The notes under the pieces are model-generated. The model was not told the origin of the DNA. It worked only from the letters and a program-made list of their open reading frames with translations, and ran no database searches. Positions 4,272 to 4,579 of a DNA stretch of 33,437 nucleotides are shown here, piece by piece; position 1 is the stretch's first letter, and each line of letters begins with the position of its first letter. Source of the stretch: Chloroflexota bacterium (GTDB taxonomy: Bacteria > Chloroflexota > Limnocylindria > P2-11E); NCBI GenBank assembly GCA_021787445.1, contig JAJYLV010000015.1, forward strand, positions 1-33,437, read 5' to 3'. The position numbers were made by a program, and so were the translations under genes.

Positions 4272-4294
4272 CCCGTTCCTCCCTCCGGGCAACG

Positions 4295-4325
4295 AAAAAG
4301 GCCGATGCGCATCGCGCACCAGCCT
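4295..4325 (-). terminator. Intrinsic terminator of the lysine riboswitch expression platform
   Basis: Read on the minus strand, AGGCTGGTGCGC (4325-4314), loop GAT and GCGCATCGGCCT (4310-4299) form a 12-bp stem with two G-U pairs, followed by a run of five T. It sits 24 nt before the hcs start codon, so it acts within the leader. An alternative helix is drawn by eye between GCATCAG...CTTC (4351-4338) and GAAGGCTGGTGC (4327-4316). It would consume the 5' arm and act as antiterminator. Confidence 0.88.
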
Positions 4326-4363
4326 TCGACGGACGCCGAAGCCACTGATGCGGTCAGCGCTCC

Positions 4364-4529
4364 GCGGCGAGGTGCCCTCCCCGCCACGACAGTCCGCGCC
4401 CTTCCGGGCCGCGTCCCAAGCTCAGGCTGTTGCCCGCCTTTGCCTTCGGCGATCGCCCCTCGCGCGGGATCTCCAGCGGGAAGCTCGTCCCTCGACCCCA
4501 CGCTGCTGACGACCGCGACCTCTGGCCGC
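4364..4529 (-). promoter_or_regulatory. Lysine riboswitch (L-box) aptamer upstream of the hcs-lysT-lysU operon
   Basis: The 166-nt minus-strand leader contains the lysine-aptamer core elements in the right order. AGAGGTCGCGG (4523-4513) corresponds to the AGAGGUGC segment after P1. GGGGCGATCGCCGAAG (4458-4443) corresponds to the diagnostic GGGG...CGCCGAAG. GGACTGTC (4395-4388) lies before P5. GGAGGGCACCTC (4380-4369) corresponds to GGAGGGCUAUCUC of the Bacillus lysC leader. The ends pair as P1: GCGGC (4529-4525) with GCCGC (4368-4364). Its length, the lysine-pathway gene downstream and the terminator just before the gene all agree. Lysine binding would be expected to favour termination. The consensus was compared from memory, and no covariance search was run. 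Confidence 0.85.
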
Positions 4530-4550
4530 GTCGCGTATGAAGTTCTCCCG

Positions 4551-4579
4551 AGCATACCGGAGGGTACCCGCGATGACCA
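4551..4579 (-). promoter_or_regulatory. Putative sigma70-type promoter of the lysine operon
   Basis: On the minus strand TGGTCA (4579-4574) and TATGCT (4556-4551) are separated by 17 nt, each matching 4 of 6 consensus positions. Initiation about 7 nt downstream, near 4544, would place the riboswitch P1 helix about 15 nt into the transcript. Unlike most promoters in this window it serves a long leader. Confidence 0.5.

Follow-up and report, generated by a model that had tools for sequence, protein, structure and literature searches.

Lysine is the shared product of the aminoadipate and diaminopimelate routes. In Thermus thermophilus, the leader of the lysine genes of the aminoadipate route is said to work by leader-peptide attenuation, sensing charging via a coding leader. 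Lysine riboswitches, or L boxes, have been described on the genes of the diaminopimelate route: the survey PMC5584792 tabulates diaminopimelate-route operons under their control, and in the passages of the survey examined, the word "aminoadipate" appears only in the introduction and in a reference. The same passages report lysine riboswitches on the catabolic genes kal and kce as positively regulated. The word "homocitrate" is absent from the main texts of two lysine riboswitch surveys (PMC5584792 and PMC3766115). No earlier report of a lysine riboswitch before aminoadipate genes was found in the searchable literature, and an earlier mention is possible.

The leader analysed here resembles the L box on diaminopimelate genes in its aptamer fold, junction core, terminator/antiterminator platform and lysine biosynthesis target, but this target is the aminoadipate route (hcs-lysT-lysU). 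With the kal and kce riboswitches it shares the aptamer family, whereas those act on another type of lysine gene, catabolic instead of biosynthetic. The leader reported for Thermus thermophilus likewise attenuates transcription, but through a coding leader, whereas the present leader carries an aptamer.

The analysed stretch, hereafter the window, comprises 33,437 nucleotides of a Chloroflexota genome (contig JAJYLV010000015.1 of assembly GCA_021787445.1), and its features are listed in Table 1. An earlier note, made from the letters alone, had placed the leader directly upstream of homocitrate synthase, lysT and lysU, and this placement was borne out by family models scoring over their cut-offs; the ends of the three genes overlap. 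Against the model of the homoaconitate hydratase small subunit (NF010629), lysU scored 221.9 bits, slightly below the cut-off of 229. As the likely start of hcs is the ATG at 4271 behind GGGAGG, the GTG at 4319 of the ORF list falls inside the leader. The unit ends at 1265, and a convergent gene of the F420-dependent oxidoreductase family occupies 334-1260.

Another contig of the same genome (G000:C167) carries LysW (TIGR01206, 53.8 bits, cut-off 53.2), LysX (TIGR02144, 355.0 bits, cut-off 275.6) and LysZ (NF010659, 263.8 bits, cut-off 223), together with a LysJ-like gene whose best family is LysJ (NF042418, 464.2 bits, cut-off 700). In this second aminoadipate operon, lysW is immediately preceded by a gene for tRNA-Lys (ctt) (L185 9745-9818, minus strand), and two small vapBC-like frames, recognized by eye, lie on the opposite strand between a lysY-like frame and lysZ (L185 6736-7483, plus strand). 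In the search for the diaminopimelate route in this assembly, which is 95% complete, dapA reached at best 55.7 bits against a cut-off of 206.15, and dapB and lysA gave no match. By family assignment, hcs-lysT-lysU is the set of first steps of a LysW-type aminoadipate route.

Table 1. Features of the leader and its downstream genes in the window.
Feature	Position	Strand	Basis or remark
lysU, homoaconitase-type small subunit	1265..1759	minus	TIGR02087 over cut-off; start overlaps lysT stop
lysT, homoaconitase-type large subunit	1759..3141	minus	NF001614, TIGR02086 and TIGR01343 over cut-off; start overlaps hcs stop
hcs, homocitrate synthase	3141..4271	minus	TIGR02146, 472.5 bits, cut-off 413.55; start ATG 4271 inferred
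GGGAGG, likely ribosome-binding site of hcs	4278..4283	minus	read directly
Terminator hairpin (4327-4297) with T run (4299-4295)	4295..4327	minus	folding, shuffles; missing from consensus scan
Antiterminator, 3' strand	4315..4323	minus	folding; within 5' arm of terminator
Hairpin CGCTGA/TCAGTG	about 4343..4359	minus	in full-length fold without P1; P1 competitor
Antiterminator, 5' strand	4344..4352	minus	folding; 4350-4352 common to P1
Lysine riboswitch aptamer (RF00168)	4347..4532	minus	Rfam match, covariation in relatives
P1, 3' strand	4350..4357	minus	folding
P1, 5' strand	4522..4529	minus	folding
AACTTCATACGC box directly 5' of P1	4533..4544	minus	largely conserved in relatives, variant in some leaders
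TATGCT, -10-like hexamer of putative leader promoter	4551..4556	minus	read directly; absent from sigma-70 scan

The aptamer matched the Rfam lysine riboswitch model RF00168 in cmscan with 41.4 bits (gathering threshold 30, E 8.8e-8) over positions 1-182 of the 182 in the model, and it was the sole RF00168 match in the 2.5-Mb assembly to which the window belongs. The aptamer core segments that the earlier note had read in order on this strand were all recovered in the cmscan alignment, as five helices round the conserved junction (AGAGG, GCCGAA, UGG, CUGUC, AGxGCU). Its P1 pairing was found as GCGGcCAG (4529-4522) with CTGaCCGC (4357-4350), giving seven pairs round a C.A mismatch. RF00168 was present in 25 of 101 Chloroflexota genomes, namely the window's own and 100 relatives, and the letters of the junction core are invariant or nearly so across these 25 leaders. 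These data confirm, as far as sequence comparison reaches, that the window holds a real lysine riboswitch, the sensor itself being ordinary.

Behind the aptamer, the terminator with five T claimed by the earlier note is well founded: the predicted folding energy of 4346-4297 is -26.5 kcal/mol, compared with -18.0 kcal/mol (sd 2.6) for 200 shuffles, of which one was as stable, and by our own rule a terminator-like hairpin occurs in 25 of the 25 leaders. As counter-evidence, a consensus scan of 4200-4700 listed no sigma-70 promoter and no terminator; the terminator was presumably missed because A-U pairing at the base of its stem consumes the required T run. The alternative antiterminator helix was also reproduced, CGCATCAGT (4352-4344) pairing with GCTGGTGCG (4323-4315), and according to folding the platform is exclusive with P1, whose bases 4350-4352 the antiterminator uses. 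When compared with shuffled strands, the antiterminator gave p <0.05 in 16 of the 25 leaders, the window, with p 0.083, not among these. A hairpin CGCTGA/TCAGTG had been proposed in addition to sequester the antiterminator arm while P1 is closed. Its complementarity exists, but it cannot act in that state, since it needs the CTG of the P1 3' strand.

Upstream of the aptamer, inspection by eye showed a TAnnnT hexamer in roughly the same position in all 25 leaders. Between this -10-like hexamer and P1 lies the AACTTCATACGC box, in the window and its relatives alike; as a shared operator in the same genome, only a weak TTCATA near lysW was found.

In predicted folds of the growing window transcript, the aptamer appeared at 4347, followed by the antiterminator at both 4315 and 4306; the terminator was formed at 4290 and also at full length, with rival states of the leader lying within 7 kcal/mol when the ligand is ignored. 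Among the 25 leaders, transcripts cut inside the terminator were predicted to form at least five antiterminator pairs to the P1 side in 19, and longer or full leaders to form the terminator in 20; the aptamer alone was predicted with P1 closed (at least four pairs) in only 12. Among the relatives, the P1 tail changes in step with the terminator arm: one group combines CGCA with TGCG, the other CGTG with CACG. Pairing of the P1-side strand with the terminator arm amounts to -20.8 and -20.0 kcal/mol within the two main groups and to -17.3 and -17.1 kcal/mol across them. Two leaders outside these groups (L016 and L022) speak against group-specific pairing, as the arms of the larger group gave -22.6 kcal/mol compared with -19.7 kcal/mol for their own pair.

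We regard a transcription-terminating lysine OFF switch on hcs-lysT-lysU as the highly probable function of this leader. The aptamer, P1, the mutually exclusive helices and their conservation are computed, and we infer lysine as the ligand, the OFF direction and the timing during transcription. At low lysine, the nascent leader would refold so that the antiterminator 5' strand, which is partly P1, pairs with the 5' arm of the terminator, and RNA polymerase would continue into hcs. Lysine in the junction would keep P1 closed and withhold some of the 5'-strand bases from the antiterminator; the hairpin at 4327-4297 would then form, and transcription would halt ahead of hcs.

Among the 101 genomes, the riboswitch was found in 24 of the 28 genomes of the same family, in the single other genome of the order and in none of the 72 others of the class. 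The searches of these 101 genomes, and those of 400, 50, 297 and 111 genomes and of 100 genomes around G624 described below, used stricter filters, with which weak copies can be lost. In 23 of the 25 loci, hcs lies directly downstream. In L003 (G016), the leader meets the contig end 76 bases behind the aptamer and very probably also precedes hcs, since L068, a stretch of 7093 bases like the hcs contig of G016, starts inside the same leader type ahead of hcs. An hcs gene over the TIGR02146 cut-off was present in 22 of the 101 genomes, every one of them a riboswitch genome, and two further genomes (G009 and G025) combine the riboswitch with broken or cut hcs copies below this cut-off. The four family members lacking the riboswitch (G005, G007, G012 and G014) are 66-85% complete, and missing contigs are likely, because G005, G007 and G012 have LysX in incomplete assemblies. 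One riboswitch-hcs genome (G019) additionally has dapB over its cut-off. Across the 29 family and order genomes, lysA is over its cut-off in 28, and dapA only in G010. A tRNA gene lies upstream of the leader in the window (tRNA-Cys, 5355-5427, minus strand) as well as in L008, L021, L023 and L024.

For the covariation count, the Rfam structure was transferred via one cmscan alignment to a plain MAFFT alignment of these leaders, with L160-L162 left out as they were misaligned in the 28-sequence alignment. Changes on both sides were found in 36 of the 53 Rfam pairs, so the helices among the relatives' leaders do covary, with P1 as the exception: none of its pairs changed on both sides among the 25 leaders, and two P1 columns mispair in 8 of them in the MAFFT alignment. 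Overall, 88.8% of cells pair, compared with 75.3% after shuffling and 34-45% when the structure was slid by 1-3 columns, and on each of five covariation measures the leaders exceeded all 500 shuffles. Relatedness by itself can lift sequences above their shuffles, but the slid control, in which relatedness is preserved, lies far lower.

The aptamer score of the window's own copy is the lowest among the 25 leaders, which reach up to 91.3 bits at the same place, and this copy appears to lack both the P2 internal-loop strands (AGTA- or ACTA-type and GAAC) present in 16 of the 25 and the CGAG/CTCG loop match, a sign of the L2-L3 contact, present in 15 (both counted by eye); the two features are typical of RF00168 and not universal. 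The riboswitch of the family might accordingly work while the window copy, devoid of these tertiary contacts, is decaying and either shows a weak response or stops transcription whether or not lysine is present. This seems improbable to us, as the junction core, P1 and the terminator are intact, the loop-loop match was significant against shuffles in 0 of the 25 leaders, and lysine riboswitch variants without the K-turn are noted in a passage of PMC2258182. Further, the platform behind the aptamer is identical to that of G001 at 74 of 75 positions, whereas the aptamer (164 of 187), hcs (1014 of 1131) and the upstream DNA (184 of 300) are more diverged. Based on this difference, we think that the window leader is probably under selection, although a weakened switch is possible.

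One relative carries the same leader type before a gene of the other lysine route. In G010 (L022 and L186, contig C97), the aptamer (L022 1501-1681, minus strand) precedes dapB, which scored over the TIGR00036 cut-off; dapA and lysA of this genome are also over their cut-offs, and no hcs or LysX was found in it. The case comes from one metagenome-assembled genome with 76% completeness and 3% contamination, on a contig of 5.7 kb. In the aptamer tree, the dapB leader is nested within the family with weak support (0.56-0.82), and we therefore claim no direction for the change of partner.

Since lysine is the product common to both routes, the dapB leader points to lysine as the ligand. It might be supposed that the aptamer has come to sense a compound of the aminoadipate route instead, given the different pathway of its target and the additional base that six leaders, the window's included, carry between AGAGG(T) and P2. 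The junction letters, however, match the Rfam consensus, and the route served by dapB in G010 shares lysine but not aminoadipate, so that a changed ligand is very unlikely. We give equally little credence to an ON switch, in which lysine would promote read-through, as PMC5584792 states for lysine riboswitches before catabolic genes; the target here is biosynthetic, and the closed P1 takes a strand from the antiterminator. A chance resemblance in a G+C-rich leader, which the modest window score and the 74% G+C of the aptamer stretch could suggest, is already contradicted by 24 other genomes over threshold, 22 of them with the match directly before hcs, and by covariation that no shuffle reached, and its probability is negligible.

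Outside the clade, a link between the lysine riboswitch, read here as a terminating OFF switch, and the aminoadipate route is rare. RF00168 was found in none of 50 genomes with related hcs genes, which came from 60 outside-clade hcs loci drawn from the best 80 of 277, and in none of 111 genomes from the phylum to which a Deinococcales metagenome-assembled genome belongs. A model built from the family (R1) reached at most 18.5 bits (E 0.015) across the 60 loci, of which 56 include 600 or more upstream bases, and Rfam over 17 of the 60 gave no lysine riboswitch. R1 is not blind to distant lysine riboswitches, since it found them in 20 of the 20 acidobacterial loci given. On these four negative results, we rejected a general association of the lysine riboswitch with aminoadipate operons.

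The 297 genomes of an acidobacterial phylum (that of a Thermoanaerobaculia metagenome-assembled genome) yielded 31 RF00168 matches, 30 of them over threshold. The remaining one (G569, 23.8 bits) was left out of the count, and its fetched stretch held none of the lysine genes searched for. According to tblastn, a dapE-like gene lies downstream in 24 of the 30 loci, lysC in 5 and lysW with lysX in 1 (G624); asd stands beside the dapE-like gene in 23 of the fetched stretches, and the dapE-like protein that was tested scored under the cut-offs of the families listed. In G624 (L194 and L213, contig C119), the aptamer (2610-2846, minus strand) and a terminator-like hairpin precede LysW and LysX, both over their cut-offs, behind which lie an ArgC/LysY-type gene and, at the contig end, the beginning of a kinase gene. 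LysW systems can serve arginine as well in some organisms. As the P2 arm of this aptamer is much longer and the lysW-lysX arrangement occurred in no other of 100 genomes around G624, whose remaining loci over threshold are among the dapE-like ones above, we take it to be a probable independent attachment.

The earlier note had suggested that one ligand sensor was recruited to a different pathway, and this proposal is strengthened by the dapB leader in G010 together with the acidobacterial lysW-lysX case. What appears to be new is the aminoadipate target, together with the occurrence of a single leader type before both routes within one family. We lean slightly towards a portable end-product sensor that would outlive the replacement of its pathway, standing before hcs in most genera of one Chloroflexota family and before dapB in another genus of it, with an independent attachment to lysW-lysX in the acidobacterial genome. 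A riboswitch regulon is usually pictured as a single sensor with a single pathway; here, one sensor precedes two chemically unrelated routes with a common end product. Selection on the ligand is thereby set apart from selection on the pathway, which the related hcs and dapB leaders of a single family allow to be tested directly. Our data also suggest a further means of control for this route in bacteria that make lysine via aminoadipate, next to the leader-peptide attenuation reported for Thermus.

Three sampled genomes of the phylum outside this clade have the riboswitch before other lysine genes. Among 400 genomes drawn from the phylum, 13 carried RF00168, 10 of them in the clade of the window. 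In G256, it precedes genes that read as dapA-dapB. In G355 (L162) and G373 (L161), which belong to another Chloroflexota family, it precedes a kce-type gene, identified in L162 as a 3-keto-5-aminohexanoate cleavage enzyme over the NF052387 cut-off and in L161 by reading-frame similarity.
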